Shown: in pieces, positions 3,747 through 37,651 of the stretch
How the letters are laid out: each line of letters opens with the position of its first letter
How positions within the stretch are numbered: the stretch's first letter is position 1
From: Cryobacterium sp. Y82
Lineage (GTDB): Bacteria > Actinomycetota > Actinomycetes > Actinomycetales > Microbacteriaceae
Reading direction: 5' to 3'
Assembly (NCBI RefSeq): GCF_002929495.1
Contig: NZ_PJJJ01000035.1
Coordinates: 186,270 to 250,269 of the forward strand
DNA: 64,000 nt
Program-made: the position numbers and the translations under genes
The notes under the pieces: generated by a model
What the model was told of the DNA's origin: nothing
The model's input: only the letters and a program-made list of their open reading frames with translations
Database searches by the model: none

Positions 3747-4517
3747 TTAAACCGCCAAAAACTCAGAGAGGGTTCGGATAGGATCGCTCGTGACGAGCGC
3801 TTCGCCCACGAGAACGACATCGGCGCCAGCGCCGCGGTAGTGCGCCACGTCGGCGGCCGTCTTGACAGCGGATTCGGCGACTCGGATAACACCGGACGGG
3901 ATTTTGTCGGCGAGAGTGCCGAAGAGGTTCTGGTCAAGTTCAAAAGTAGACAGGTTGCGCGCGTTGACGCCGACCAGGCTCGCGCCGATGTCGAGTGCGC
4001 GGCTGACTTCGTCGCCACTGTGCGTTTCGACCAACGCAGTCATTCCGAGCTCGCGAATGAGATCGTGCAGCGAGAGCAAAGTGGCTTGATCGAGCGCGGC
4101 CACGATGAGCAGCACAAGGTCGGCGCCGGCCGCGCGGGCTTCGAACACCTGATACGGCGTGCCGATGAAGTCCTTACGCAGGATAGGAATGTTTACCGCT
4201 GCCCGCACCTGCTCGAGGTCGGTCAGTGAGCCCTGAAAACGGCGACCCTCGGTGAGTACGCTGATAGCGCTCGCCCCACCCGTCTCATAGGACACTGCCA
4301 GGCCTGCCGGGTCCGTGATGGACGCCAGGGTGCCACGGCTCGGACTGGCCCGCTTGATTTCTGCGAGAATCTTGACCCGCACAGTGGGGGCCAAGGCGGC
4401 CAATGCATCGAGAGCGGGCGCGTGGGCGCGCGCCGCAGCCTCCACTCTTGCGAGCGGACGAGTGAGAAGGCGCTGATCGGCGTCAGAGAGCGCACCAGCG
4501 AGAAGTTCTTGGAGCAC
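3747..4517 (-). CDS. trpC: Indole-3-glycerol-phosphate synthase
   Basis: TrpC closes the ring of CdRP to give indole-3-glycerol phosphate, the substrate of TrpA. The 256-residue protein is monofunctional, with no TrpF domain; this fits actinobacteria, where the PriA/HisA isomerase usually supplies the TrpF step. Signature motifs are ILAEIKRASPSRG (catalytic Lys), LRKDF and VGVNARNL, with VAESAVKT and VLVGEALV near the C-terminus. The start is GTG at 4517; the upstream ribosome site is weak. Neither trpD nor trpF is found in this cluster. Confidence 0.97.
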   Translation of the reverse strand: MLQELLAGALSDADQRLLTRPLARVEAAARAHAPALDALAALAPTVRVKILAEIKRASPSRGTLASITDPAGLAVSYETGGASAISVLTEGRRFQGSLTDLEQVRAAVNIPILRKDFIGTPYQVFEARAAGADLVLLIVAALDQATLLSLHDLIRELGMTALVETHSGDEVSRALDIGASLVGVNARNLSTFELDQNLFGTLADKIPSGVIRVAESAVKTAADVAHYRGAGADVVLVGEALVTSDPIRTLSEFLAV

Positions 4518-4536
4518 CAGGTCTCAGCGCCGCCGG

Positions 4537-4758
4537 TTAGTGCTCGGCCGACGTGGCGCTAACGCCGTAGCCGACTTTGCCGAGTACGTAGCCGACGATG
4601 AGCCCGGCTATAAGCAACCCGAAGGAAGCCCAGACGAGCCAGGCGAGACTAAAGAAGAATGCTGTGGTGCCGATGGTAAAGGCAGCCAGCATGATGATGA
4701 CCGCGATCCAGGCCGCCGGGGAGTGGCCGTGTCCGGGATCTGACAGATCGATGCTCAT
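4537..4758 (-). CDS. HGxxPAAW family small membrane protein
   Basis: This 73-residue protein has the motif HGHSPAAW at residues 10-17, followed by two hydrophobic segments (about 16-37 and 39-61). The family is named after the motif and is commonly found in actinobacteria between the Trp-associated membrane gene and trpC, exactly as here. Its function is unknown; membrane location and the conserved neighbourhood are the only clues. It lies 19 nt upstream of trpC and 74 nt downstream of the previous gene. Confidence 0.85.
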   Translation of the reverse strand: MSIDLSDPGHGHSPAAWIAVIIMLAAFTIGTTAFFFSLAWLVWASFGLLIAGLIVGYVLGKVGYGVSATSAEH

Positions 4759-4832
4759 GGTTCTCCTCGTAAATACGTAAACACTGTATGCGTTGACAAG
4801 CAGGTCAAGTCTAGCGGAGCGACAGCGCGCCC

Positions 4833-5528
4833 TCAGCGAGCGGTCGGGTCTTCGCCGCGACTGAGGTCGTCCCAGTCGCCAACGGAGTCAGCCGGCGCAG
4901 GCTCGGTCGACGCATCGCTGGTCACCGCCGGCGGAGGCTCGGTCGACGCATCGCTGGTCACCGCGGAAGCTGGCAGGGAACCGTCGGGGTCGGCAACCGG
5001 CTCAAACCGCACGGCCTGGTATTTGCGAGTCGGCCCGGGCCAGCGTGCGCTCGTCACGATGACGGCAACACCGGTCGCCGCCATAATGACAGCGGCGCCC
5101 ATTGCGACGAACGGCCACGGGGTAACCACCGTGCCGAGAACGCTCAACTGAATGGATTCGTGTCCGGCAATTCCGGTCGCAGCAGTGACCGCAGCGGCAC
5201 TGGCCTGAGACGGGTCCTCGACCGCGAGGTATGCGGCCAGAAAGACCGAGAACCCGAGGAGAACCTCAAGCGCGCCGAGCACGACCCTGATGAGGCGACC
5301 GGCGATGGTGAGGGCAGCGGAGAGGGCGAACCCGGAAAGGGCCAGCGCCGTCAGTGCCGGTGCGGCGATGGCTCCGTCGATCTCGAGCACCTGGCTGCCA
5401 GCGTCGGGCAGTGCCACTTCGGCGTGCACCCAGACCTGCGTCCACGCCAGCATTGCCAGGGCACTCGCGCCCAGAATGGTGAGAATGAGTACGAGTTTGA
5501 GGCGACGCGCGGGCATCCGTTCGTTCAT
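4833..5528 (-). CDS. Trp biosynthesis-associated membrane protein
   Basis: The 231-residue protein has four hydrophobic segments (about 12-32, 54-74, 82-102 and 133-160) and a long hydrophilic tail. In actinobacteria a membrane protein of this kind sits directly after trpE (family often named Trp_oprn_chp). Its biochemical role is not known. Its ATG overlaps the trpE stop by one base (TAATG at 5530-5526), which implies translational coupling. The tail contains an exact-looking 12-residue duplication, AVTSDASTEPPP then AVTSDASTEPAP, from a tandem 36-bp DNA repeat, then ends in acidic and Arg residues. Confidence 0.85.
   Translation of the reverse strand: MNERMPARRLKLVLILTILGASALAMLAWTQVWVHAEVALPDAGSQVLEIDGAIAAPALTALALSGFALSAALTIAGRLIRVVLGALEVLLGFSVFLAAYLAVEDPSQASAAAVTAATGIAGHESIQLSVLGTVVTPWPFVAMGAAVIMAATGVAVIVTSARWPGPTRKYQAVRFEPVADPDGSLPASAVTSDASTEPPPAVTSDASTEPAPADSVGDWDDLSRGEDPTAR
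4891..4962. repeat. Tandem 36-bp duplication inside the Trp-associated membrane gene
   Basis: Two adjacent 36-bp units, 4891-4926 and 4927-4962, differ at one base (c or g at unit position 8). The unit length is a multiple of three, so the reading frame is kept and 12 residues are duplicated in the hydrophilic tail. Near identity suggests a recent slippage event, and copy number may vary between strains. Confidence 0.9.
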
Positions 5529-7084
5529 TAGAACACTCGCCGCATCGCGTTGGCGATGGCGACGGCGCGCAAGGGGGCTGCCGCTTTGTTCTCTGACTCC
5601 TGGTACTCGGAGGCCGGGTCGGAATCGGTGACGACGCCGCCGCCGGCCTGTACCCGGGCGATGCCGTCCTTGATGGTGGCGGTACGGATGGCGATGGCAA
5701 GGTCGGCGTCGCCGGCGAAGCCGAAGTAGCCCACCACTCCCCCGTACACGCCACGCTGAGCCGGTTCGAGAGCGTCGATGATCTCGAGCGCCCGCGGTTT
5801 CGGAGCGCCCGACAGGGTGCCGGCCGGAAAAGTGGCACGGAAAACATCGATCGCGGTCTTGCCGGCGACCAGGTTGCCCTCGACCGAGGACACCAGGTGC
5901 ATGATGTGGCTGAACCGTTCAATGCGCATGAATTCGGTCACTTCGACCGATCCAGCCGTGCAGACTTTCAGCAGGTCGTTGCGGGCGAGGTCGACGAGCA
6001 TGAGGTGCTCGGCACGTTCCTTGGGGTCTTCGGCCAGCTCGATCGCGTAGTCGGCGTCGGCATCCGGCGTTGTGCCGCGTGGTTTCGAGCCGGCGATCGG
6101 GTGGGTGAAGACGCGTTGGTCTTGTACCTTGACGAGCGCTTCGGGCGAGGACCCGACGATCCAGTACGGGTCTCCCTCCGCCGTTTCGAGACTGAGCAGG
6201 TACATGTATGGGCTCGGGTTGAGGCTGCGCAGCACGCGGTAGACGTCGATGGGGTGTGCGGTGCAGACCTGGTCGAAGCGCTGGGAGATGACGACCTGAA
6301 ACACGTCGCCGTCGACGATGTGCTGTTTGCCAACATTGACGGCGGCAAGAAAATCGTCTCGCGTGGTGCGGTTGCTCGGCGCGCTCGGTGCCTGCAGGTC
6401 AACCTCAGCCAGCCAGGCTTCTCCGGGCGCGGCAAGTCGGGTTTGCAGTGAATTCAGGCGTGCCGTCGCGTCAGCCCAGAGCTGCTCGGGGGTGTCGGCG
6501 CCGTCGTTGAGCACGTTGGCGATGAGTTGCACGGTTCCGTACTTGTGGTCGAGAACGACGAGGTCGGCGACGAAGCTAAACGACTGGCCTGGCACCTCGT
6601 AGTCGGCCGGCGGCTGGTGCGGCAGGCGTTCGATCTGGCGAATCGCCTCCCAGCCGATGAAGCCGACCAGTCCTCCCGTGAGCGGGGGGTGCTCGGGCAG
6701 CCGCGGCGTCTGCCAGCGTTCGAACAGGTAGGCCAGAGCGTCGAGGGGTCCGAGTTCGGCTGCGGAGCCGAGCGCACGCTCGGTGGAGAGGCCGTAGTCG
6801 ATCCACCGGGTGTCGTCGCCCTGTTGGGTGAGCACACCGAACGAGGAGACACCGATAAAGGAGAACCGGGACCAGATTCCGCCCTGTTCGGCGGACTCCA
6901 GCAGAAAGCTGCCCGGCAGTCCGTCGGCCAGTTTTCGATAGATGCCAACGGGGGTCTCACCGTCTGCGAACAGTTCACGGATCACCGGAATGACCCGGTG
7001 CTCCCCGGTTAACGCATCAAACTGGTCGCGCGTCGTCGAACCGGCCGTACGGGAACCGGTTGCGACGGGGGTACTATCGGTCAT
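5528..7084 (-). CDS. trpE: Anthranilate synthase component I
   Basis: TrpE converts chorismate to anthranilate, using ammonia from the glutamine amidotransferase subunit (TrpG, not in this window). The protein has 518 residues. The N-terminal LLESAEQGG is the LLES tryptophan-feedback site, so allosteric inhibition is probably retained. The catalytic chorismate-binding domain shows HPIAGSKPRG, PAGTLSGAPKPRA and YGGVVGYFGF. Its ATG at 7084 overlaps the hisI stop by 4 nt (ATGA), so there is no room for a trp leader peptide or attenuator directly upstream. Transcription must come from within or upstream of the his genes. Confidence 0.98.
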   Translation of the reverse strand: MTDSTPVATGSRTAGSTTRDQFDALTGEHRVIPVIRELFADGETPVGIYRKLADGLPGSFLLESAEQGGIWSRFSFIGVSSFGVLTQQGDDTRWIDYGLSTERALGSAAELGPLDALAYLFERWQTPRLPEHPPLTGGLVGFIGWEAIRQIERLPHQPPADYEVPGQSFSFVADLVVLDHKYGTVQLIANVLNDGADTPEQLWADATARLNSLQTRLAAPGEAWLAEVDLQAPSAPSNRTTRDDFLAAVNVGKQHIVDGDVFQVVISQRFDQVCTAHPIDVYRVLRSLNPSPYMYLLSLETAEGDPYWIVGSSPEALVKVQDQRVFTHPIAGSKPRGTTPDADADYAIELAEDPKERAEHLMLVDLARNDLLKVCTAGSVEVTEFMRIERFSHIMHLVSSVEGNLVAGKTAIDVFRATFPAGTLSGAPKPRALEIIDALEPAQRGVYGGVVGYFGFAGDADLAIAIRTATIKDGIARVQAGGGVVTDSDPASEYQESENKAAAPLRAVAIANAMRRVF

Positions 7085-7446
7085 GCCATCGGCCTGTCCA
7101 TGGTGATTGCGCCCAGGTCGCGCCCGTCAAAGCACGTGTGCGTGCCAGTGTGACAGGCGGCTCCGACCTGGTCGACCTGCACGAGCAGGGTGTCACTATC
7201 GCAGTCGAAGGCGGCGGACTGCACGTACTGGGCGTGGCCGGAAGTGTCGCCCTTCCGCCAAAATTCCTGCCGGCTGCGCGACCAGAAGGTCACGCGTCCC
7301 GAGGTGAGGGTGCGGCGGAGCGCTTCCCGGTTCATCCACCCGAGCATGAGCACCTCACGGGTGTCCCACTGCTGGATTACGGCGGGAAGCAGCCCGTCGT
7401 CACTAAATACAGCGGCGTCCAGCTGATCGGTAAGTTCCTTGGTCAT
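7081..7446 (-). CDS. hisI: Phosphoribosyl-AMP cyclohydrolase
   Basis: HisI opens the adenine ring of PR-AMP, the third step of histidine synthesis. The 121-residue monofunctional enzyme shows WSRSRQEFWRKGDTSG and the metal-site cysteines in DCDSDTLLVQVDQVGAACH and CF. The PR-ATP pyrophosphohydrolase (hisE) is a separate gene here, as usual in actinobacteria. Its ATG overlaps the hisF stop by one base (TGATG) and its stop overlaps the trpE start. Confidence 0.97.
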   Translation of the reverse strand: MTKELTDQLDAAVFSDDGLLPAVIQQWDTREVLMLGWMNREALRRTLTSGRVTFWSRSRQEFWRKGDTSGHAQYVQSAAFDCDSDTLLVQVDQVGAACHTGTHTCFDGRDLGAITMDRPMA

Positions 7447-8207
7447 CAGCGCACCAGCATTCCGGCGTCGGCGAGCTCACGCTTGACGTCGCCTATGGTC
7501 AATAGTTCATTGTGAAAAACGGATGCCGCGAGAACGGCATCCGCACCGGCTCGAATCGCCGGCGGAAAGTGCTCCAGGCGCCCAGCGCCACCGGAGGCGA
7601 TCACCGGAACCCGACTGTTGGTTCGCATGAGCGCGATAAGGTCGGTATCGAATCCGGCCTTCGTGCCGTCGGCATCGATCGAGTTGACCAGGAGTTCCCC
7701 GGCACCCAGCTCGATCGCCTGCCGGGCCCAGGCCACGGCATCCAGGTCGGTCTCGGTACGGCCACCGTGCGTGGTGACGACGAAACCGCTCTCCGTGCGT
7801 TCGGATCGTTTGACGTCAAGGCTCAACACGAGCACCTGGGCGCCAAACCGGTCGGCGATTTCAGCGATAAGAGCCGGGCGGGCAATGGCCGCGCTGTTGA
7901 CGCTGACCTTGTCGGCGCCGCTCGCCTGCAGCCGGGAGACGTCTTCGACGGTGCGGATGCCGCCGCCGACCGTCAGCGGAATGAACACTTGCTCAGCGGT
8001 CGCGCGCACCACGTCATAGGTCGTCGAGCGGTTGTCCACCGTGGCGGTGACATCGAGGAAGGTGAGTTCGTCGGCACCCTGCTCGTAGTAACGTCGCGCC
8101 AGCTCGACCGGGTCGCCGGCGTCGCGCAGATTCTGAAAGTTGACGCCCTTAACGACGCGACCGTTGGCCACGTCGAGGCAGGGTATGACGCGCACACTCA
8201 AACTCAT
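7446..8207 (-). CDS. hisF: Imidazole glycerol phosphate synthase, cyclase subunit
   Basis: HisF, with HisH (not in the window), makes imidazole glycerol phosphate and AICAR from PRFAR. The 253-residue TIM barrel has both catalytic aspartates, Asp12 in [15 protein letters not shown] and Asp131 in VLSLDVKRS, plus the phosphate loops GGGIRT and ASGGAG. The start is ATG at 8207, with a GAGGAGA-type ribosome site. The gene lies 21 nt after hisG. Confidence 0.98.
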
Positions 8208-8228
8208 GCGAGTTCTCCTCTCGCCGGT

Positions 8229-9068
8229 TTACAAACGGGCGTTGTGGATGGTGGTGACCAGGATGGCCCTGGCCCCAAGGGCGTAGAGGGCATCCATCAC
8301 GTTGTTCATATCGAGCCGGGCGATCATGACGCGCACGGCGGCCCACTCCGGGTCGTGAAGGGAGGAAACAGTCGGGGATTCGATGCCGGGCGCGAGCGCT
8401 GCGGCAGCATCGAGCAGGGCTACCGGGATGTCGTAGTCGAGCAGCACGTACTGGCGTGCCACGAGCACGCCCTGGAGGCGGCGCAGCAGGGTGTCGATTC
8501 CGGCCTTGTCGCTGGTGGAGCTGATCAGTACGGCGGTGGACTCGAGGATGACCGGTCCGAAGATTTCGAGGCCGGCTTTGCGCAGGGTCGTCCCGGTGGA
8601 GACGACGTCGGCGACGGCATCCGCTACCCCGAGCTGAACGGCAGATTCGACCGCGCCATCGAGTTCGACCAGGTCGACGGTCACGGAGTGCGTGGCGAGG
8701 AAGCGTTCCACCAGGCCCGGGTAGCTCGTCGCGACGCGCAGACCGTCGAGGTCTTTCAGCTCGGTGAAGCGCCCGGCCGGCCCGGCGAACCGAAAGGTCG
8801 AGTCGCCGAAGTCGAGGGCGGCGATCTCCACGGCTTTCGAGTGCGAGTCGAGCAGCAGGTCGCGGCCGGTGATGCCGACGTCGAGCGCGCCTGATCCGAC
8901 GTAGGTGGCGATGTCGCGGGGGCGAAGATAGAAGAATTCGACGCCGTTTCGCGGATCGGCGGTGACGAGGTCACGTGGATCGCGCCGGCCGGTATAGCCG
9001 GCTTCAGCCAGCATCTGCGCGGCGGTTTCAGACAACGAGCCCTTGTTGGGCACGGCAATTCTCAGCAT
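8229..9068 (-). CDS. hisG: ATP phosphoribosyltransferase, long form
   Basis: HisG catalyses the first, feedback-controlled step of histidine synthesis, joining ATP and PRPP. I start it at ATG 9068 (MLRIAVPNKGSL), which has an AAGAGAG ribosome site 7 nt upstream; a reading frame extending to 9095 adds only unconserved residues. The 279-residue length and the C-terminal part after about residue 205 (VLLDYDIP, then the ALYALGARAILVTTIHNARL end) fit the long HisG form with a regulatory C-terminal domain, so no HisZ is needed. The PRPP loop is DVVSTGTTLRKAGL. Confidence 0.96.
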   Translation of the reverse strand: MLRIAVPNKGSLSETAAQMLAEAGYTGRRDPRDLVTADPRNGVEFFYLRPRDIATYVGSGALDVGITGRDLLLDSHSKAVEIAALDFGDSTFRFAGPAGRFTELKDLDGLRVATSYPGLVERFLATHSVTVDLVELDGAVESAVQLGVADAVADVVSTGTTLRKAGLEIFGPVILESTAVLISSTSDKAGIDTLLRRLQGVLVARQYVLLDYDIPVALLDAAAALAPGIESPTVSSLHDPEWAAVRVMIARLDMNNVMDALYALGARAILVTTIHNARL

Positions 9069-9140
9069 GGGGATACTCTCTTGGTTTTTTAACATACGAC
9101 TATTGAGTGAATTCGAGCCAGCGTCGAACGCCGGCGTGGG

Positions 9141-9404
9141 TCACAAATGTCGGTAAATGTCGGCCGGAGAGAGGCCCTTGGCGATCATCATGACCTGCAG
9201 GTGGTACAGCAACTGGGAGATTTCAGCGGAGGTTTCGTCGTCGCTTTGAAACTCGGCGGCCATCCAGACTTCGGCGGCTTCCTCAACAATTTTCTTGCCG
9301 ATGGCGTGCACGCCGGCGTCCAGTTCGCGTACGGTACCGGAGCCCTCTGGACGGGTGGCGGCCTTGTCGCTTAGTTCTACGAAAAGGTCATCGAATGTTT
9401 TCAC
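9141..9404 (-). CDS. hisE: Phosphoribosyl-ATP pyrophosphatase
   Basis: HisE hydrolyses PR-ATP to PR-AMP, the second histidine step. The 87-residue helical protein has the MazG-like metal site [13 protein letters not shown] and the [18 protein letters not shown] segment. The start is GTG at 9404, which overlaps the rpe stop (GTGA), so translation is probably coupled to rpe. A 72-nt gap to hisG contains a weak GC stem (GCCGGCG/CGCTGGC) but no clear terminator. Confidence 0.96.
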
Positions 9405-10084
9405 AACTCTAGGTTACCCGCCCCGTGACGGTGGCTGGCCGCGCGCTCCCGCAGCAGGCCGATCTGGGCGGCGGGATTCTCGGCCCCAAACACGCTGGAA
9501 CCAGCCACAAAGGTGTCGGCGCCGGCCAAAGCGGCAATTTCGATCGTCTGCTCGGTGATGCCGCCGTCGACCTGCAGCCAGACGTCGAGGCCGGTCTTTT
9601 CGACGGCAGCGCGGAGCTGCTCGAGCTTCGGCATGGTCGATTGCATGAAGCTCTGGCCGCCAAAACCCGGCTCGACTGTCATTACGAGCACCTGGTCGAA
9701 TTCGGAGAGCAGTTCGAGATACGGCGCAACATCAGTGCCCGGTTTCAGGGCGATGCCAGCGCGCGCGCCGATCTGCCGCAGCCGACGGGCCAGAGCGATG
9801 GGCTCGGTCGTGGCCTCAGCGTGGAAGGTCACCGAGTAGGCGCCGGCCTCGGCATAGCCCGGCGCCCAACGCTCGGGATCCTCGATCATCAAGTGGATGT
9901 CCAGCGGCAGCGGCGACACCTGCTGCAGGCGTTCGACCATTCCCAGCCCGAAGGTGAGGTTTGGAACGAAGTGGTTGTCCATGATGTCAACGTGCACGAG
10001 GTCGGCAGAGCGGATGCGGGAAAGCTCGCTCTCAAGGTTGGCGAAATCGGCGGCGAGGATGCTCGGATTGATGCGGTTAGCCAT
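9401..10084 (-). CDS. rpe: Ribulose-phosphate 3-epimerase
   Basis: Rpe interconverts ribulose 5-phosphate and xylulose 5-phosphate in the pentose phosphate pathway, and so influences the supply of ribose 5-phosphate and PRPP for the histidine genes that follow. The protein has 227 residues, with [52 protein letters not shown] and VDGGIT as family motifs. It overlaps hisE by 4 nt. It is the first minus-strand gene after a divergent plus-strand gene, so the promoter of the his-trp string probably lies in 10085-10163. Confidence 0.97.
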
Positions 10085-10127
10085 CCACTCAGCCTATCGA
10101 GCCAGAGCTCGGCGCGTGGTTGCCTCA

Positions 10128-10149
10128 GGACCGTGCCGCGGGACGGTCC
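10128..10149. promoter_or_regulatory. Inverted repeat in the rpe/DUF2809 divergent spacer
   Basis: Perfect 7-bp arms GGACCGT (10128-10134) and ACGGTCC (10143-10149) flank an 8-bp spacer in the 79-bp divergent gap. It ends 14 bp before the plus-strand ATG at 10164. It could be an operator or a leader hairpin; nothing in the sequence identifies a partner protein. Confidence 0.4.
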
Positions 10150-10163
10150 CCTATCCTCAAGGG

Positions 10164-10604
10164 ATGGAACGCTCGGAATCCCCGTATTCGCGTGGGACGA
10201 GACCCGCGTCGAGGAGCAGACGGAGCCTCCTGGCTTCCGGCGCTGTCATCACGGGCATGGGGTTGACGGTTCATTTCACCAACAATGGACCGGTCGGTGA
10301 TTTCGCTGCCGACGCTCTGTACGCGGTGCTGACCTACCTGGCCGTTTCGTTCATCGCTCCACGCTTTCGACCTCAGGTCAGTGCAACGATCGCCTACTTG
10401 GTTTGCGTGACGATCGAGGCAGCCCAACTATCCCCAGGGCCGGCTGCCCTGGCCGATGTCTTTCCGCCGGCCAGACTCATTCTCGGCACGACGTTTGCGC
10501 CCGTGGATCTCCTCGCCTATGCCGTGGGGGTGTCAGCCGCCCTGGTCTGCGACAGGCTCATTCCACGACGCCGCACGCGATCGATCCGGCCAACCGCCAG
10601 GTAG
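10164..10604 (+). CDS. DUF2809 family membrane protein
   Basis: The 146-residue protein has four hydrophobic segments. The pattern GDFAADALYAVLTYL, a VCVTIEAAQL segment, and FAPVDLLAYAVGV near the end match the DUF2809 family as I know it (small membrane proteins of unknown function). I start at ATG 10164, since the reading frame further upstream lies opposite rpe and adds unlike sequence. A CAAGGG element lies just before the start. It stands alone on the plus strand between rpe and a degenerate region. Confidence 0.75.
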   Translation: MERSESPYSRGTRPASRSRRSLLASGAVITGMGLTVHFTNNGPVGDFAADALYAVLTYLAVSFIAPRFRPQVSATIAYLVCVTIEAAQLSPGPAALADVFPPARLILGTTFAPVDLLAYAVGVSAALVCDRLIPRRRTRSIRPTAR

Positions 10605-10683
10605 CAGCTACGGAATGCGCTCGTGCAAGCGGCACTCACCGTGGTCGAGGCGCCACAATCTACATCCGCGCTAGTCGACCTTG

Positions 10684-10720
10684 CCGAGACCTCCACGTGC
10701 ACGACGTGGCGCGGTCTCGG
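10684..10720. repeat. Strong composite hairpin
   Basis: Outer arms CCGAGACC (10684-10691) and GGTCTCGG (10713-10720) and inner arms CCACGT (10693-10698) and ACGTGG (10704-10709) form a 14-bp stem with a small asymmetric bulge and a 5-nt loop. No T-run follows on either strand. It lies just past the stop of the minus-strand relic and may be its old terminator, or a small palindromic repeat. Confidence 0.6.
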
Positions 10721-10743
10721 CGTCGTACACGTGGGGCGGGCGC

Positions 10744-10988
10744 CTACTTTTCCCAGTTGGGTTTTTCGGCAGGGGTGGCAGCGCGGTTTTGGCCGGCGGG
10801 GCGCCAGGTTTGGGTGGGGTCGAACACGGGGGCCCGGAGACCCCGGGCCGGCCGTCTCGCATGGTGATATCCGAGCCGGAGGTCTCGATACTTTCACGCC
10901 CGGCGTTGCAGAGCAGCACAGCATTGTCCATATCGGCGGGTCCGCCCGTGCGCCGGGGCCTCACCGGGCGCAGAGCCGTCCGGTGCAT
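10744..10988 (-). pseudogene. Relic of a DUF222/HNH endonuclease-type gene (C-terminal end)
   Basis: The minus strand encodes GGPADMDNAVLLC then SDITMRDGRP in one frame, and, shifted by one base near a run of five C at 10828-10832, DPTQTWRPAGQNRAA ending in TAG at 10746-10744. This order resembles the end of the DUF222-HNH proteins common in Microbacteriaceae (GGPT.xDN.VLLC..HH...... then a Trp/Pro-rich tail). The HH pair expected after LLC is missing (LLCNAGRESIETSG) and there is no upstream DUF222 domain. It therefore looks truncated, frameshifted and catalytically dead. The assignment rests on motif memory, not on a search. Confidence 0.6.
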
Positions 10989-11243
10989 TATGAAAAAAAC
11001 CTGAAATTGAGTGCAAACTTGCTCAAAGAAAGAACCTCCCCGACCCGGCCTTAGTGCGAGTTATCGATCAAATTTTCGAAAGTACCAGGAGCTATGCACA
11101 AGGCAGAAACAAGGAGACGTCGAGCATAGAGTTCCTCGCACTGCCGCGCGGCGCTCCGAGCACCCGGTGCACCGCTGCTCGACACTGGGCAGCATGCTTG
11201 GTCATCGCTCGGGGCGCATTTCGTGCTGTTGAAATCGTGTTAT

Positions 11244-11269
11244 CGTTTATCGTTATGTATCGACAAACG
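11244..11269. promoter_or_regulatory. Candidate operator upstream of the DUF2975-HTH pair
   Basis: Arms CGTTTATCG (11244-11252) and CGACAAACG (11261-11269) are inverted repeats matching at 8 of 9 positions, separated by TTATGTAT. The site is AT-rich in a GC-rich genome and lies 67 bp before the DUF2975 start. An extra half-like TTATCG sits at 11240-11245. The neighbouring HTH protein is the obvious candidate to bind it, which would give autoregulation. Confidence 0.5.
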
Positions 11270-11336
11270 TTATGGCGTAAGGGTCCAGCATGATGATGAT
11301 TCAACACGACACGAAGAACTCTGAAATGACACGCTG

Positions 11337-12107
11337 ATGGCGGCTCTAACCTGGTGGGCTGCTCTCCTCGTCTTACTCGTGCTCGGCACCATAGCGACCG
11401 TCGTGGTAATCGAACGTCGATCGGGATCTCGACCGGGCACCGATGTCGGCCCCACCAAGGCGGTGCGGGTCACCAGAATCATCGCGATCCTCTATGCGGT
11501 GGTGACGGTGTTCGGAACTGTAGCCGACGCCCTGCAACGGCTACTCAGCGACGCTGTGAGTGTGCGGCTGCCCGTCAAGCCATTCTGGCCCGGCCTGCCG
11601 AACACGGTTGAGGTCACGGGGACGACCGCCGACGTTGTGGGTGGAGGGTTCGACCACGCTGTGGTGACCGTGGCAGGGCTGGACACTGCCACCCGCGTCT
11701 GGCTGGCAGCCGGCGACGCGCTTCAGGGAGCGACGAACGTTGTGATCGCTGTCGTTGTTGTTATGCTCTGCACGAGCATCATCAGGCTGGATCCGTTCCG
11801 TCCGGCACTGACCCGCGGCATCAACCTGACCGCGACCTCGATCATCGTCGGCGGCCTCGGCTGGCAGGTGTGTGATGCTGTCGCGGGCGGCCTCGCCTCC
11901 TCTCAGGTACTCAGGGCAACCGGGTGGAGTCTGGACACAGCCGAGATCGACTGGACTGACATTCGTCAGGTCATCGGGCTGCCGATGGCAGGCCACGAAT
12001 GGACTCTGGATTTCTGGCCGATCTGGGTGGGCCTGGCCCTGTTCGCCGTAGCCGCGGTATTTCGATACGGGCAGAAGTTGCAAAGAGACTCCGACGGGCT
12101 CGTCTGA
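11337..12107 (+). CDS. DUF2975-like membrane protein
   Basis: The 256-residue protein has about five hydrophobic segments (5-25, 45-66, 128-148, 160-182 and 221-242) and a central extracytoplasmic-looking part. The pairing with a tiny Cro/C1-type HTH protein encoded directly downstream is the hallmark arrangement of DUF2975 proteins, and the topology fits; similarity is only moderate. The ATG at 11337 has no clear ribosome site; an in-frame stop at 11322 prevents a longer start. The stop overlaps the next ATG by one base (TGATG). Function is unknown. Confidence 0.65.
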   Translation: MAALTWWAALLVLLVLGTIATVVVIERRSGSRPGTDVGPTKAVRVTRIIAILYAVVTVFGTVADALQRLLSDAVSVRLPVKPFWPGLPNTVEVTGTTADVVGGGFDHAVVTVAGLDTATRVWLAAGDALQGATNVVIAVVVVMLCTSIIRLDPFRPALTRGINLTATSIIVGGLGWQVCDAVAGGLASSQVLRATGWSLDTAEIDWTDIRQVIGLPMAGHEWTLDFWPIWVGLALFAVAAVFRYGQKLQRDSDGLV

Positions 12108-31860: not shown

Positions 31861-32292
31861 CTAAGTGGTGACGAAGTCCAGGGCCAGCCGGTAGGAGTCA
31901 AAGCCAAGACCGGCAATGACACCGGTCGCGATGGCGCTCACCACACTCGTGTGGCGGAACGTCTCACGAGCGTGCGGGTTCGAGATGTGCACCTCGATCA
32001 GCGGCAGACCCGCCTTGGAGACGAGGGCAGCGGCATCTCTCAACGCGTAGCTGTAGTGCGTGAACGCTGCCGGATTCAAAATGACCGGCATCCGCTCGTC
32101 AACGGCTTCGTACAGCCAGTGGATTAGCTCAGCCTCGTCGTCGGTCTGCCGCAGGTCGATCGTGACCCCGTCCCGAGCGGAGGCGACGAGCAGCTCGCGC
32201 AGGTCGTCCAGGTTCGCCGACCCGTACACGTCAGGCTCGCGACTACCCAGGCGACCGAGGTTGGGACCGTTCAGAACCAGCACTGTACTCAT
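31861..32292 (-). CDS. aroQ: 3-Dehydroquinate dehydratase, type II
   Basis: AroQ converts 3-dehydroquinate to 3-dehydroshikimate. The 143-residue type II enzyme has [19 protein letters not shown] with catalytic Tyr23, [15 protein letters not shown], and His102 in [11 protein letters not shown]. It is the step between AroB and AroE, and those genes lie about 4 kb away on the same strand with the aldehyde dehydrogenase module between them. In related genomes aroB and aroQ are often adjacent, so the module may be an insertion. Confidence 0.97.
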
Positions 32293-32341: not shown

Positions 32342-32740
32342 TCAGGGAGCGAGAACGGCTACGCCGTCATCGTGAGCGACGAACAGGCCGGTAATTCGCA
32401 TGAGCTTGCCGAAGGACTCCGTCAACTCCACGGCCCAGGCCTGGTCTGGGGCAGTGCGGGCAGCTGACCCCGGTCGTTCCAGGGTCACTATGAGGCTGCC
32501 TCCCGGAGCGTCACTGGCCAAAATTTCGTTGATCTTCACGGCAAACGGTCGCACCGAACCAGGTTCGGGCCGAAGCGGAATGCCGTCGATGGGAATCAGC
32601 AGCGAAAGCTGTTGCCCGTGAGCGTCGAGAACCATGAGCCAGAGCTGGCGGCGGATGGCGTGGCCGATCAGGTCGAAAACCCGTGCCCTGGCCTGCACCA
32701 CCGTAGTCACGGGCGGAGCGTCGTCGATGTTGATTGTCAT
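32342..32740 (-). CDS. Conserved-looking hypothetical protein
   Basis: I do not recognise this 132-residue protein. It has no signal peptide or membrane segment. An N-terminal helix (VVQARARVFDLIGHAIRRQ) is followed by alternating strands (LWLMVLDAHGQQLSLLIPI, GSLIVTLERPG, AWAVELTESFGK) that suggest a small alpha/beta fold. The clear strand pattern, codon use like its neighbours and ATG start at 32740 support a real gene. It lies 49 nt upstream of aroQ on the same strand. Confidence 0.65.
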   Translation of the reverse strand: MTINIDDAPPVTTVVQARARVFDLIGHAIRRQLWLMVLDAHGQQLSLLIPIDGIPLRPEPGSVRPFAVKINEILASDAPGGSLIVTLERPGSAARTAPDQAWAVELTESFGKLMRITGLFVAHDDGVAVLAP

Positions 32741-32967: not shown

Positions 32968-34332
32968 ATGGGACACGGCTTGAAAAGTACGTCGTCAATT
33001 CCGACCGGCCCAGCGCGTGAGAATCTGCTCGCCCTCGAACGAGCCCACGAATCCGCCGTCACAGACCGCATCTTCCAGTCCGGTGTGCGCCAGCTCGTGC
33101 AGGATTCCTGGCAGCGGTCCCTCTCGCTCAGCCTCGACCCCGGGAGCGTTGCACCCGAGCGGACACTGACCGATACCGAACTGCGCAACCTGCGCAACCA
33201 GCATCCGCTTGCCGCTGTGTTGCCCGTCGTACACAACCTGCTGATTCGCCACGCCCTCGATGCTGAGTTACTCGTTGCCATCGGCGACGAATCCGGCCGG
33301 TTGCTCTGGATCGACGGCGACCGGGTGCTGCGCCGCCAGGTCGAGGAAATGCTGTTCGTCGAGGGGGCCGACTGGTCGGAAAAGCGGGTCGGAACCAGCG
33401 CCCCCGGTACCGCCCTGGCTCTGGACCGCGGCATTCAGATTCGGCGGGCCGAACACTTCAACGCCCTCGCGCACCCGTGGAGCTGCACGGCCGTACCCAT
33501 CCACGACCCAGACACCGGCAAAATCCTCGGCGTGATTGACATCACCGGCGGCGACCAGGCAGCCGCACCGCAAACACTCCCCCTCGTTGAAGCAGCTGTC
33601 GCCGCGATGGAGGCCGAGTTGCGCATCCAGCGCCTCGGCCAGCCGAAGTCTTCACCGCCCGCCCACCGATCGCTTATATCACTTCCGACAAGCGTGCCGC
33701 GCCTCGCGCCGGCCGGTCTGAGTGTGCTCGGCACCGATCACGGCCAGCTGTATTGCGGCGGCAACACCGTGGATGTCTCGCCCCGCCACACCGAGATTCT
33801 TACGCTTCTGGCCTGGCACCGCGAAGGACTTTCCGCCGATCGTCTGGCCAGCTATCTTTTTGATCTGGACCCAGCGGTGGAAACGCTGCGCGCCGAAATG
33901 GTTCGGGTACGCAAGGTCCTCGCCCTCCTCGACCCTCCGATCACGATCACCTCCCGCCCGTATCGGCTGGAATCGCGGCTCGAACTCGACGCCCAACAAG
34001 TGCTGGCTTTTCTGGAACGCGGCGCCCACCGGGTGGCTCTCGGCGCCTACCGCGGCGCTGTACTCCCGGGATCGTCAGCTCCCGGGATCATTGAAATTCG
34101 TTCAGAAGTGAGCAGCCGACTGCGCGAGGCGATGCTCGCGGATGCGTCGGTCGACCTGCTGCTCACCTACGCGCGTACCGAAGAAGCCACCTGGGATACC
34201 GAAGTCTGGCGGGCCTGCCTCGAGCTGCTTCCGGCCCGATCGCCCAAACGTGCAACGGTCGTGGCGCATCTGGCCCGCATCGAAGTCGAAATCGGTGGCC
34301 ATCGCAACATTTCGCAACGTTCCCGCTTCTAG
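32968..34332 (+). CDS. GAF-domain transcriptional regulator of the aldehyde dehydrogenase module
   Basis: The 454-residue protein begins with an AcoR-like region ([21 protein letters not shown], then a GAF sensor at about 75-215 with ATGTALA-like [21 protein letters not shown]). Instead of the AAA+ and sigma-54 domains of AcoR it carries a winged-helix segment at about 265-330 ([31 protein letters not shown]) and a helical C-terminus. Such proteins are usually encoded beside aldehyde or alcohol dehydrogenase genes in actinobacteria. The GAF domain may sense the aldehyde or a related metabolite, and the downstream gene is the likely target. Start ATG 32968 has GGAGG 9 nt upstream. Confidence 0.82.
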
Positions 34333-34388
34333 AATCGGATCAGGCCGCAGGTTTGCGTGCCCGACACCGTCGTCGAAATAGGAGTGAC

Positions 34389-35912
34389 ATGACCGTTTAT
34401 TCAGTCCCAGGAACACCCGGCTCCAAAGTTACCTTCAAGTCCCGGTACGAGAACTGGATCGGCGGGGAATGGGTCGCCCCCGTCAAGGGCCAGTACTTCG
34501 AAGACATCACCCCCGTCACCGGCAAGCCGTTCGCCGAAGTTGCTCGCGGCACCGCCGAAGACATCGATCTGGCGCTCGACGCCGCCCACAAGGCCGCTCC
34601 CGCCTGGGGTAAGACCAGCCCGGCCGAGCGCGCATCCGTGCTGAACAAGATCGCCGACCTCATCGACGCCAATGTCGAGATGCTCGCCGTCGCCGAAACC
34701 TGGGACAACGGCAAGGCGGTGCGCGAAACCATCAACGCTGACATTCCCCTCGCCGCCGACCACTTTCGCTACTTCGCGTCGGCGATCCGAGCCCAGGACG
34801 GCGACCACGCTCAGCTCGACGGCGACACGGTCTCGTACCAGTTCCACGAGCCGCTCGGCGTCGTCGGCCAGATCATTCCGTGGAACTTCCCCATTTTGAT
34901 GGCCGTCTGGAAGCTTGCCCCCGCACTCGCCGCCGGCAATGCGATCGTTCTCAAGCCGGCCGAGCAGACCCCGGTCTCGATTCTCGTACTGATGGAGCTC
35001 ATCGGCGACATTCTCCCCCCTGGAGTGGTAAACGTGGTCAACGGTTTTGGCCTCGAGGCCGGCAAGCCGCTCGCTTCAAGCAACCGCATCCGCAAGATCG
35101 CCTTCACCGGGGAGACCACAACCGGACGCCTGATTCTGCAGTACGCCTCGGCCAATATCATCCCGTCGACCGTCGAGCTCGGCGGCAAGAGCCCGAACAT
35201 CTTCTTCAGCGACGTTGCAGAAGAGAAGGACGCCTTCTACGACAAGGCCCAGGAAGGCTTCGTGCTGTTCGCCTTCAACCAGGGTGAGGTCTGCACGGCT
35301 CCGAGCCGGGCGCTCCTGCAGAAGCCGATCTACGACAGCTTCCTCGGCGATGCGGTCACCCGGGCCAGGAAGATCATCCAAGGCAACCCGCTCGACACGG
35401 ACACCCAGATGGGCGCACAGGCCAGCAACGACCAGCTCGAGAAGATCCTGTCGTACATCGACATCGGCACCAAGGAGGGCGCAAAGCTGGCGCTCGGCGG
35501 CGAACGTGCCGATCTTGGCGGTGACCTCACCGACGGCTACTACGTGCAGCCAACCATTTTCGAAGGCCACAACAAGATGCGCCTGTTTCAGGAAGAGATC
35601 TTCGGACCGGTCCTGGCCGTGACGAGTTTCACCGATTACGACGATGCCATCTCCATCGCCAACGACACCATCTACGGCCTCGGGGCGGGTGTCTGGTCGC
35701 GCAACGGCAACGTCGCCTACCGGGCGGGCCGCGATATCCAGGCCGGCCGGGTCTGGGTGAACAATTACCATGCCTACCCGGCTGGGGCGGCATTCGGCGG
35801 TTACAAGAGCTCCGGCATCGGCCGCGAGAACAACAAGCTCGCACTCGGTCACTACCAGCAGACCAAGAATCTGTTGGTTTCCTATTCCGAGAACAAGCTC
35901 GGCTTCTTCTAA
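34389..35912 (+). CDS. NAD-dependent aldehyde dehydrogenase (acetaldehyde/ExaC-like)
   Basis: The 507-residue enzyme oxidises an aldehyde, probably acetaldehyde, to the acid. Motifs are complete: [13 protein letters not shown] (cofactor site), general base Glu264 in ELGGKSP, nucleophile Cys302 in [12 protein letters not shown], and the [23 protein letters not shown] end. [11 protein letters not shown] and the closely linked DUF779 gene are typical of the ExaC/AcoD/AldB-like branch. I start at ATG 34389 because AGGAG lies 4 nt upstream, although the frame is open to 34353. It lies 56 nt after the GAF regulator and is followed by a strong terminator. Confidence 0.93.
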
Positions 35913-35974
35913 ACCGATCAATCTGGCCCGCGGCGTAGTTCCATCCAGTGGGAGTTGGCTGTAGGGCTGGTCCG

Positions 35975-36014
35975 GGGGCTGCCGACGACGTAACGTCGTA
36001 GGCAGCCCCTTTTT
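35975..36014 (+). terminator. Strong intrinsic terminator between the aldehyde dehydrogenase and DUF779 genes
   Basis: GGGGCTGCC (35975-35983) pairs with GGCAGCCCC (36001-36009), and inside it ACGACG pairs with CGTCGT, with one mismatch; TTTTT follows at 36010-36014. This is the most canonical rho-independent terminator in the window. It ends 29 nt before the DUF779 ATG, so it should reduce or stop read-through into that gene. Confidence 0.85.
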
Positions 36015-36043
36015 ATCAACGCCCGTTTATTGGAGGTCAGTCA

Positions 36044-36529
36044 ATGTCGACACCCACCATCACCGCCTCGGTCACGATCGCTGGCGAAACCGTTCCCCGC
36101 GTCGAACTCACCCCGGTCGCGGTCGATCTGCTCCGGAGCCTGTGGGAGGAGCACGGCCCCCTCATGTTCCACCAGTCCGGCGGATGCTGCGATGGCAGTT
36201 CACCGATGCTGTTCATGGCGGGCGAGTTCATCACTTCTGATCAGGACGTTCGCCTCGGCCAGTTCGATATCGCTCCGGCCAATGAGCCCAGCCAGCCCCT
36301 CGATTTCTGGATGTCGGCTGAACAGTTCAACTACTGGAGCCATACCTTTCTCACCGTCGACGTCGTACCCGGTCGGGGCAGCGGCTTCAGCGCCGAAGCC
36401 CCTCGCGGTGTGCGCTTTCTCATCCGCTCCGAGCTCATGACCACGATGACCCCGTTTGCCGGCTCGGCCGAAACCGACACGGTACAAGAGGATGCCGTAG
36501 CCACCCCCTCGAAGGCTGTTCCAGCCTGA
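36044..36529 (+). CDS. DUF779 protein, aldehyde dehydrogenase partner
   Basis: The 161-residue protein carries the DUF779 signature MFHQSGGCCDGSSPMLF, with a paired cysteine that could bind a metal or thiol adduct. DUF779 genes are habitually next to acetaldehyde-type dehydrogenases; their role is not established. The first ~130 residues fit the family, and the last ~30 are an Ala/Thr/Val-rich extension. ATG 36044 has GGAGG 8 nt upstream. A strong terminator precedes it, and its stop is only 3 nt from the convergent aroB stop. Confidence 0.88.
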   Translation: MSTPTITASVTIAGETVPRVELTPVAVDLLRSLWEEHGPLMFHQSGGCCDGSSPMLFMAGEFITSDQDVRLGQFDIAPANEPSQPLDFWMSAEQFNYWSHTFLTVDVVPGRGSGFSAEAPRGVRFLIRSELMTTMTPFAGSAETDTVQEDAVATPSKAVPA

Positions 36530-36532
36530 GGG

Positions 36533-37651
36533 CTACTGGCCGATGGCTTGGTATGCGCTGAACAACAGGGAGGCGTCCGGGCCTTCGAGGATGGTGGGCT
36601 TGCCCACATCGTCGAGCACGACGAAGCGCAGCATGCCGCTGCGTGTCTTCTTATCGCGCTGCATCGTGGCGAGCAGGGTAGGCCAGCGGCCGACCGGATA
36701 GCCGGTGGGCAGGGTCAGCGACTCGAGAATGCTGCGGTGCCGATCGACGACCTCCATCGGGAGCCGGCCACTCAGGGCAGCGAGCTCGGCCGCGAACATC
36801 ATGCCGACGGCAACGGCCGCGCCATGACGCCAGCCGTACCGTTCGGCGTGCTCAACGGCGTGGCCAAGGGTGTGGCCGTAGTTGAGGATCTCCCGGAGGC
36901 CGACTTCCTTGAAGTCTTCCCCCACGATGCGGGCTTTCATCGCGATGGACAGTTCGATCAGCCGGCGAAACTCGGGGGTGGTCGGGTCGGTGGCGCGGTC
37001 GACATCCGCTTCGATGATGTCGAGAATTTCGGGAACCTGAATGAAGCCGGCCTTCACGATTTCAGCGAACCCGGCCAGGATTTCATTCTTCGGCAGCTCA
37101 GCGAGCAGGTCCAGGTCGCAGAGCACCGCGGCGGGCGCGTAGAAGGTGCCGACGAGATTCTTGCCCTCGGCGGTGTTGATCCCGTTCTTGCCGCCGACGG
37201 CGGCATCGACCATGCCGAGCACACTCGTGGGAATCTGAACGAGCTTCACACCGCGCAGCCAGGTGGCGGCGACGAAGCCAGCGAGGTCGGTGACTGCGCC
37301 GCCGCCAAGTCCGATCACGGCGTCGGTGCGGCTGAAATCGGATTGACCCATCACGCCCCAGCAGAACGCTGCGACCTCGACGCGTTTGGCGGCCTCGGCG
37401 TCGGGAATCTCAGCGAGCAATACTTCAGAATAGGTTTCGAGCAGGTTGTCCCGCAGTGCAACGGCGCGGGCGCCGACGGTGGAGGTGTGCACGATGAGTA
37501 CTTTGTTGACGCCGCTGCCCAGCTGCTCGGCGACGGTAGTGACCAGGCCACGCCCCACTTGCACCGGATAGCTATCAATCCCGGTCACGGTGATTACGGT
37601 GGTTGCGGGCTGCTCGGTCATCTCGGTCATTCTGAAAATCTCACTCATCAT
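36533..37651 (-). CDS. aroB: 3-Dehydroquinate synthase
   Basis: AroB cyclises DAHP to 3-dehydroquinate using NAD and a metal. The 372-residue protein has GLGGGAVTDLAGFVAATWLRG (NAD site) and DAAVGGKNGINTAEGKNLVGTF; the metal-binding residues in NYGHTLGHAVE are present. ATG 37651 overlaps aroK by 11 nt; ATG 37630 or 37621 would also be possible and would avoid an unconserved N-terminus. It is the last gene of the aroE-aroC-aroK-aroB string. Confidence 0.97.
   Translation of the reverse strand: MMSEIFRMTEMTEQPATTVITVTGIDSYPVQVGRGLVTTVAEQLGSGVNKVLIVHTSTVGARAVALRDNLLETYSEVLLAEIPDAEAAKRVEVAAFCWGVMGQSDFSRTDAVIGLGGGAVTDLAGFVAATWLRGVKLVQIPTSVLGMVDAAVGGKNGINTAEGKNLVGTFYAPAAVLCDLDLLAELPKNEILAGFAEIVKAGFIQVPEILDIIEADVDRATDPTTPEFRRLIELSIAMKARIVGEDFKEVGLREILNYGHTLGHAVEHAERYGWRHGAAVAVGMMFAAELAALSGRLPMEVVDRHRSILESLTLPTGYPVGRWPTLLATMQRDKKTRSGMLRFVVLDDVGKPTILEGPDASLLFSAYQAIGQ

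Follow-up and report, generated by a model that had tools for sequence, protein, structure and literature searches.

The window analyzed here is a 64,000-nucleotide (nt) stretch of the genome of Cryobacterium sp. Y82 (contig NZ_PJJJ01000035.1, positions 186,270 to 250,269), and the element in question is a group of three plus-strand genes between aroQ and aroB. Judged from their sequences, these genes look like an ethanol/acetaldehyde-oxidation cassette, made up of a GAF regulator, an acetaldehyde dehydrogenase of the ExaC class and a DUF779 protein. We consider it probable that the cassette belongs to a regulon for ethanol oxidation and forms its acetaldehyde-oxidation arm, in which the DUF779 protein serves as a thiol or metal accessory. 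The regulon part of this explanation is strong, and the chemistry assigned to DUF779 is a guess. A preliminary description of the window had placed three such genes here and called them an aldehyde-oxidation module. Both statements held: GAF, ExaC and DUF779 were confirmed by Pfam and NCBIfam, and the ExaC match lies above its curated cut-off.

Predicted operator and hybrid regulator

Of 150 full-length dehydrogenase genes, 131 have a direct repeat, GCAAC-N5/6-GCAAC, in their upstream region, and the first TANNNT box starts exactly 11 nt past the second GCAAC in 126 of these repeat-bearing regions. The repeat was seen in 0/150 cases on the reverse strand, in 0/141 upstream of the regulator gene and in 18 of 3000 stretches drawn at random from the same loci. 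In the Y82 sequence the predicted operator-promoter lies at 34304-34335 (plus strand), with GCAAC at 34304-34308 and 34314-34318 and a -10-like TAGAAT at 34330-34335, which shares its TAG with the stop codon of the regulator. By the strict pattern this site is the sole exact match in the 3.69-Mb genome. Across 57 Cryobacterium genomes the same pattern gave 69 exact matches in 42 genomes, compared with 3 for the pattern read backwards, and all 69 could be traced: 24 stand ahead of AdhP and 45 ahead of ExaC or ExaC-like copies. At the aro locus, 39 of the latter belong to the main ExaC copy and 3 are additional sites; the remaining three are the site of the window, one at L120 (a decayed copy) and one at L398 (on a split contig). 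One of the 24 AdhP genes was matched in two pieces, and for one of them the family name comes from NF006940.

The regulator gene (32968-34332, plus strand) encodes 454 amino acids and gave a Pfam GAF match of 33.4 bits (cut-off 22.4). In the AlphaFold2 model (predicted local distance difference test score, pLDDT, 91.6) residues 40-234 (33085-33669) match the sensor part of DhaR, DhaR(N), with a VIA-align Z of 23.4 and a root-mean-square deviation of 2.5 over 191 aligned residues. Structure comparison of the same model matched residues 244-448 (33697-34311) to the SARP module, an OmpR-type winged helix with a BTAD-like part, as seen in AfsR (Z 15.2 and 14.7) and EmbR (Z 13.8). The order of the SARP layout, winged helix followed by BTAD, is present in the model, where residues 247-445 match AfsR with Z 15.2. 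A sequence profile pointed the same way, with DhaR at E 1.4e-15 together with winged helices of the OmpR/PhoB type. On this modelling evidence the regulator is a hybrid that combines a DhaR-type sensor with a SARP module of winged helix and BTAD.

The hybrid resembles each of its two parent groups in part. With the DhaR/AcoR activators it shares the sensor; unlike them it carries a SARP-like module in place of the AAA+ sigma54 domain, for which Pfam gave no match. With the SARP activators AfsR and EmbR it shares the fold of winged helix and BTAD and direct repeats phased to a -10 box, and it differs from them in having the module behind a DhaR-type sensor and in leaving the Pfam BTAD model unmatched. 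The preliminary description had given it an AcoR-like sensor, a winged helix and no AAA+ domain; the first and last of these stand, and the winged helix alone fell short, the model giving a whole SARP module. In an alignment of 48 regulators (the window's and 47 of 52 regulator frames; alignment A3), searched at E up to 0.1, GAF was matched in 35 of the 48 and Trans_reg_C (PF00486) in 24, the window's own protein being without PF00486, and BTAD (PF03704) was matched in none of the 48. The working definition of a SARP in PMC10663231, as far as its accessible text goes, is a Pfam match to both OmpR (PF00486) and BTAD (PF03704), a pair that the window regulator does not show; the same accessible text treats GAF in histidine kinases and SARPs separately and has no GAF-SARP protein. 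A literature search for GAF-SARP regulators or for SARP control of ethanol use found no such protein, most subscription papers being beyond its reach. We know of no named family with the layout of DhaR sensor and SARP module.

Direct repeats phased to a -10 box are the SARP style of operator, and the spacing of 11 nt in 126 of 131 cases fits it, the operator being predicted from sequence. It is improbable that a different regulator binds the GCAAC repeats and that the GAF-SARP protein controls something else. Outside Cryobacterium the presence of the strict site tracks the regulator: of 91 loci that have the regulator 84 show the site, against 1 of 11 that lack it (Fisher p 9e-9, uncorrected for kinship). 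L174 and L217, duplicates of L040 and L034, were omitted from this count and retained in the repeat-frequency and DUF779-upstream counts. Binding of another protein is favoured by the seven non-Cryobacterium loci that have the regulator and lack the strict site and by the one that has the site and lacks the regulator, and the pairing of regulator and repeat is itself a prediction; the SARP-style phasing argues for the hybrid regulator.

We propose that the DhaR-type sensor would detect acetaldehyde or a related small molecule, and that the SARP module would then bind the repeats and recruit RNA polymerase in SARP fashion, replacing the sigma54 route of AcoR and DhaR. In relatives, the polymerase would also be brought to the promoters of AdhP and of DUF779 genes unlinked to ExaC. 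ExaC would then convert acetaldehyde to acetate.

ExaC, the hairpin and the company of DUF779

The dehydrogenase (507 amino acids, ATG start, 34389-35912, plus strand) matched NF050026 over its whole length with 926.9 bits, against a curated cut-off of 900 bits, and its activity on acetaldehyde is predicted from this match. The catalytic Cys302, assigned by position, is the only cysteine in the window protein, and the nearest solved chains are 9fm9 and 9koi. The protein differs from most ExaC relatives at residue 304, which is Ala in the window's clade and Cys in most relatives (CTC).

Between the dehydrogenase and DUF779 lies a terminator-like hairpin followed by a T run (35975-36014, plus strand; z -4.8, 17-nt arms, 94% complementary). 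Among ExaC-DUF779 gaps of 60-220 nt a stable hairpin (z below -2) was found in 43 of 46 Cryobacterium loci, 23 of 27 from the family and 8 of 12 others. When rerun under a common gap rule the frequency was 36/38, vs 3/27 for the aroQ-EFP gap and 10/27 for the regulator-ExaC gap. The hairpin sequences vary among relatives and the long stem is kept, and a TTTT run was found in 15 of 21 gaps of the clade with inverted cassettes and in none of the 25 gaps of such length from codirectional loci. The hairpin may hold DUF779 expression under the level of ExaC. A scan for sigma70 promoters and terminators picked up neither the operator nor the hairpin.

The DUF779 gene (36044-36529, plus strand) encodes 161 amino acids with twin cysteines, Cys48-Cys49, in the motif HQSGGCCDGS (residues 43-52), and matched PF05610 with 135 bits (gathering cut-off 25). 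It had been described as keeping strict company with this class of dehydrogenase, which proved right for shared genomes and wrong for strict adjacency. At 19 of 80 named loci no ExaC match was present in the examined stretch (up to 8 kb per side, less on short contigs), and ExaC was found above cut-off elsewhere in 16 of the 16 searchable genomes of these unlinked DUF779 genes (L221, L229 and L244 lie outside this count). A regulator match was present at all 17 ExaC loci examined from genomes with unlinked DUF779. In the genome of L288 a second DUF779 gene adjoins its ExaC. At L343, L345 and L346 the DUF779 frame was not refound, so the wider surroundings lie outside the reading of those loci. 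Among 198 sampled actinobacterial genomes, 17 have ExaC above cut-off, and these include all 13 in which DUF779 is matched strongly (at least 100 bits).

The promoter pattern extended this link. The GCAAC repeat was found no more than 250 nt upstream of 13 of the 19 unlinked DUF779 genes, and within 160 nt upstream of only 1 of 157 other DUF779 genes, namely L251, whose ExaC is 5.4 kb off. Because the same DNA switch precedes both AdhP and stand-alone DUF779 genes in relatives, a predicted shared promoter code, together with the genomes shared with ExaC, ties DUF779 to alcohol metabolism. An AdhP-like gene, recognized by motif, was also present in 16 of 20 long ExaC-DUF779 gaps, mostly in Arthrobacter and its kin.

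On plasmids, an ExaC match lay within 6 kb of DUF779 in 11 of the 12 records examined (out of 88 plasmid records); of these 12, 3 have an annotated AdhP, 2 have alcohol-oxidation genes of the pyrroloquinoline quinone (PQQ) type and 2 have acs. The pairs on plasmids of Azospirillum, Variovorax, Ruegeria and Deinococcus are like that of the window in having the dehydrogenase directly before DUF779, and unlike it in having other regulators and, for Variovorax and Ruegeria, PQQ alcohol-oxidation genes nearby. We take Rv0458-Rv0459 to be a comparable pair, presumably with Rv0459 as its DUF779 member. This pair is treated in the accessible text of PMC11895460, and in Azospirillum, according to the accessible text of PMC12826043, overproduction of the sigma factor RpoE6 raises DUF779 together with an aldehyde dehydrogenase and PQQ-related proteins. 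The Deinococcus dehydrogenase-DUF779 pair (L275) adjoins genes for cyanophycin synthetase and cyanophycinase. An Azoarcus plasmid carries a DUF779 relative (L282, 5992-6372) whose neighbours are a truncated haemoglobin and an OsmC-YcaO protein, with no ExaC match within 6 kb.

Fold, cysteines and possible roles of DUF779

A resemblance of DUF779 to IscA was noted from sequence ahead of any fold search. The model of the window protein (pLDDT 87.8) gave HesB-type chains as top Foldseek matches (best E 5e-3). In VIA-align the nine best rows were HesB-type chains with Z 4.3-6.3, followed by a row at Z 2.4; these fold scores are modest and count as a point against the overall explanation, as a Z under 8 may, by the aligner's own note, mean a common arrangement only. 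We take 9a4q, 1nwb and 2apn to be chains of the HesB family. The link was further supported, independently of the model, by profile comparison, where a wide, hand-picked DUF779 alignment (A5, 16 members, without L266, L270 and L274, the last of which lacks the twin cysteines) matched HesB profiles colinearly in hhalign with probability 94.3 and E 1.1e-7 over 93 columns. A narrow DUF779 alignment gave a probability of 62.6 and the control 0.4; alignment A2 holds the window and 52 of the 80 named loci, and A4 holds 23 of 29 HesB frames. The window protein had no match to PF01521 at E up to 1, the best relative was the remote L267 (E 0.0024, 18.5 bits, under the cut-off of 26.3), and a sequence search of solved chains gave no useful E-value, its only match being an S-layer chain at E 0.29-0.44. 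Taken together, model and profiles suggest that DUF779 is likely a distant HesB/IscA homologue.

In the main set of 176 DUF779 frames the twin cysteines are missing from one broken frame and kept in the other 175, and they are kept in all 16 members of the wide alignment. Their GGC loop coincides with the GGC loop of HesB, and the profile match stops ahead of the C-terminal CxC of the latter. DUF779 is thus like the HesB/IscA A-type carriers (PF01521) in fold, in colinear profile match, in the GGC loop and in the GF....P end, and unlike them in having twin cysteines in the loop and no C-terminal CxC, which was found after the loop in 0 of 175 frames, single cysteines being present in some tails. 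A third cysteine (SSPMC) is present in most DUF779 proteins and is Leu in the window; most members of the inverted clade to which the window belongs have lost it, as have some DUF779 proteins elsewhere. The suggestion that the twin cysteines point to metal or thiol chemistry therefore survives in part: their modelled HesB/IscA-like setting is compatible with it, and two relatives, named below, lack them.

Two possible links between DUF779 and residue 304 of ExaC were considered and rejected. Cys304 is no mark of DUF779 dependence, as ExaC of four examined genomes without strong DUF779 is also CTC. Covariation of residue 304 with the third DUF779 cysteine failed with the Sphingobium, Tsukamurella and Helicobacter plasmid copies, which lack the DUF779 cysteine and yet keep Cys304. 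Within Cryobacterium the third cysteine has been lost only where ExaC has Ala304.

As to function, we favour a small thiol or metal accessory that would sustain or aid aldehyde oxidation, possibly by protecting or reactivating the active-site cysteine of ExaC or by buffering the aldehyde. That DUF779 is instead a true A-type carrier, loading metal or an iron-sulphur cluster into a metalloprotein of alcohol metabolism, seems to us rather unlikely. Its fold and profile match and the position of the twin cysteines at the GGC cysteine of HesB proteins would suit such a carrier, and a published database lists DUF779, from SUPFAM, under iron-sulphur cluster biogenesis (PMC12828279, as far as its accessible text goes), so that the HesB link is not wholly new. 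The missing CxC argues against the carrier, as does the loss of the third loop cysteine in several branches. Nor are ExaC and AdhP, to our knowledge, iron-sulphur enzymes.

A scaffold or channelling part that unites the dehydrogenase with acetate activation is equally doubtful. It is suggested by a plasmid of Sphingobium RSMS, where a single fusion protein of 760 amino acids, with DUF779 at its residues 30-123 and then a complete acetyl-CoA synthetase, stands behind ExaC and AdhP, and by acs near the dehydrogenase-DUF779 pair in Variovorax. Against it, the fusion was seen once, acs is annotated in only the two plasmid loci mentioned above and DUF779 can be distant from ExaC. More speculative still, and in our view a long shot, is the idea that DUF779 uses its HesB fold as a thiol relay: the twin cysteines would take acetaldehyde, or else the acyl group from the thioester of ExaC, and pass it onward, in the extreme case directly to the fused acetyl-CoA synthetase.

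Several observations weigh against the explanation of the cassette as the acetaldehyde arm of a regulon with DUF779 as accessory. The strict operator pattern is missing from 24 of 148 dehydrogenases, 14 of them despite the regulator, and from 15 of the 57 Cryobacterium genomes, and seven Cryobacterium loci have regulator and ExaC without it. Of the pattern, the unlinked DUF779 genes show the repeat only, and its -10 part was not seen to extend to them. Four of the 17 ExaC genomes in the 198-genome sample have no strong DUF779, and the control genomes of E. coli, Caulobacter and C. glutamicum have ExaC and no DUF779. Conversely, in eight genomes of the sample ExaC is absent and DUF779 is represented by weak relatives only; two of these relatives (L267 and L271) stand directly behind an aldehyde dehydrogenase of another class, a third (L266) follows a partial one at a distance of about 0.7 kb, and the other five have no aldehyde dehydrogenase in their 1.5-kb flanks. 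L274 and the Azoarcus L282 lack the twin cysteines. Finally, AdhP was not found in the window's own genome at E<1e-80, in a search that had no positive control and shows little. Because no AdhP was found there, though relatives have AdhP under the same operator, ethanol itself may not be the substrate in the window's species, and the source of the aldehyde there may differ.

The aro site and its history

The flanking aro genes lie on the minus strand, aroB at 36533-37651 (TIGR01357, 340.7 bits, cut-off 305) and aroQ at 31861-32292 (PF01220, 167.2 bits). Between the cassette and aroQ, and outside the cassette, is a gene for 132 amino acids (32342-32740, minus strand) that matched no Pfam or NCBIfam family; in many Cryobacterium relatives this gene adjoins the cassette on its aroQ side.

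Of the 57 Cryobacterium genomes, 49 have DUF779, with that of the window counted among them. In the 48 others that bear it the cassette lies at or by the aroB-aroQ site, with L078 represented by DUF779 alone, adjoining the 132-amino-acid gene on a short contig; several of the stretches contain aroB and end before aroQ. The cassette is opposed to the aro genes in L032-L052 and runs in their direction in L053-L077 and L079. In a tree of dehydrogenase and regulator (the window, 46 of the 48 Cryobacterium loci and 9 from other genera; L077 and L078 omitted) all inverted loci were placed in one clade nested inside the codirectional loci. Because of this nesting, the simplest reading of the sequences is that the cassette was inverted in place, once, in the window's clade. 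No convincing inverted repeats that might account for the inversion were seen at the cassette edges.

Elsewhere in the family, each of 48 loci from 45 other genera has a dehydrogenase match ahead of DUF779 and on its strand (that of L147 being cut short and that of L155 broken), and no aro genes were matched near the cassette in these stretches, which are mostly 14 kb. Among the eight Cryobacterium genomes without DUF779, two (L120 and L122) retain decayed remnants of regulator and dehydrogenase at the site, and in the remaining six no cassette gene was matched there. Because the cassette occupies the site across Cryobacterium, lies elsewhere in other genera and has left decayed remnants, the aro-site position is, as these comparisons indicate, a feature of the genus that is old within it, with losses later.

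That the cassette came from outside and entered the aro block recently is accordingly very unlikely in our judgement. The preliminary description had implied as much by saying that the cassette interrupts a core block, and the cassette does lie away from the aro genes in other genera and does differ in orientation from its neighbours in the window. The comparison across relatives speaks the other way: the site is occupied across the DUF779-bearing Cryobacterium genomes, with the cassette codirectional in the outer clades, the inverted clade is nested among them, and two genomes without DUF779 keep remnants. Variation at the site was also seen. In L118, a close relative, ~8 kb of other DNA (~3900-11860) replaces the cassette between aroB and the 132-amino-acid gene, additional ExaC-like genes or fragments stand in tandem at the aro site in L035, L040, L047 and L048, and additional operator sites are present there in L040, L042 and L047.

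In the literature searched, with most subscription papers beyond reach, neither a functional study of DUF779 nor a paper connecting HesB-type domains with aldehyde dehydrogenases was found. DUF779 is a widespread family, and its links by fold, promoter and fusion narrow its function to a few roles in alcohol metabolism that can be tested, and the operator offers a one-pattern tool to find the regulon. The DhaR-SARP regulator with its phased operator suggests how actinobacteria refitted a sigma54-type sensor to sigma70-type promoters. If the thiol relay were true, a fold of iron-sulphur assembly would have been turned into a carbon carrier or aldehyde guard, under a new class of DhaR-SARP regulator.

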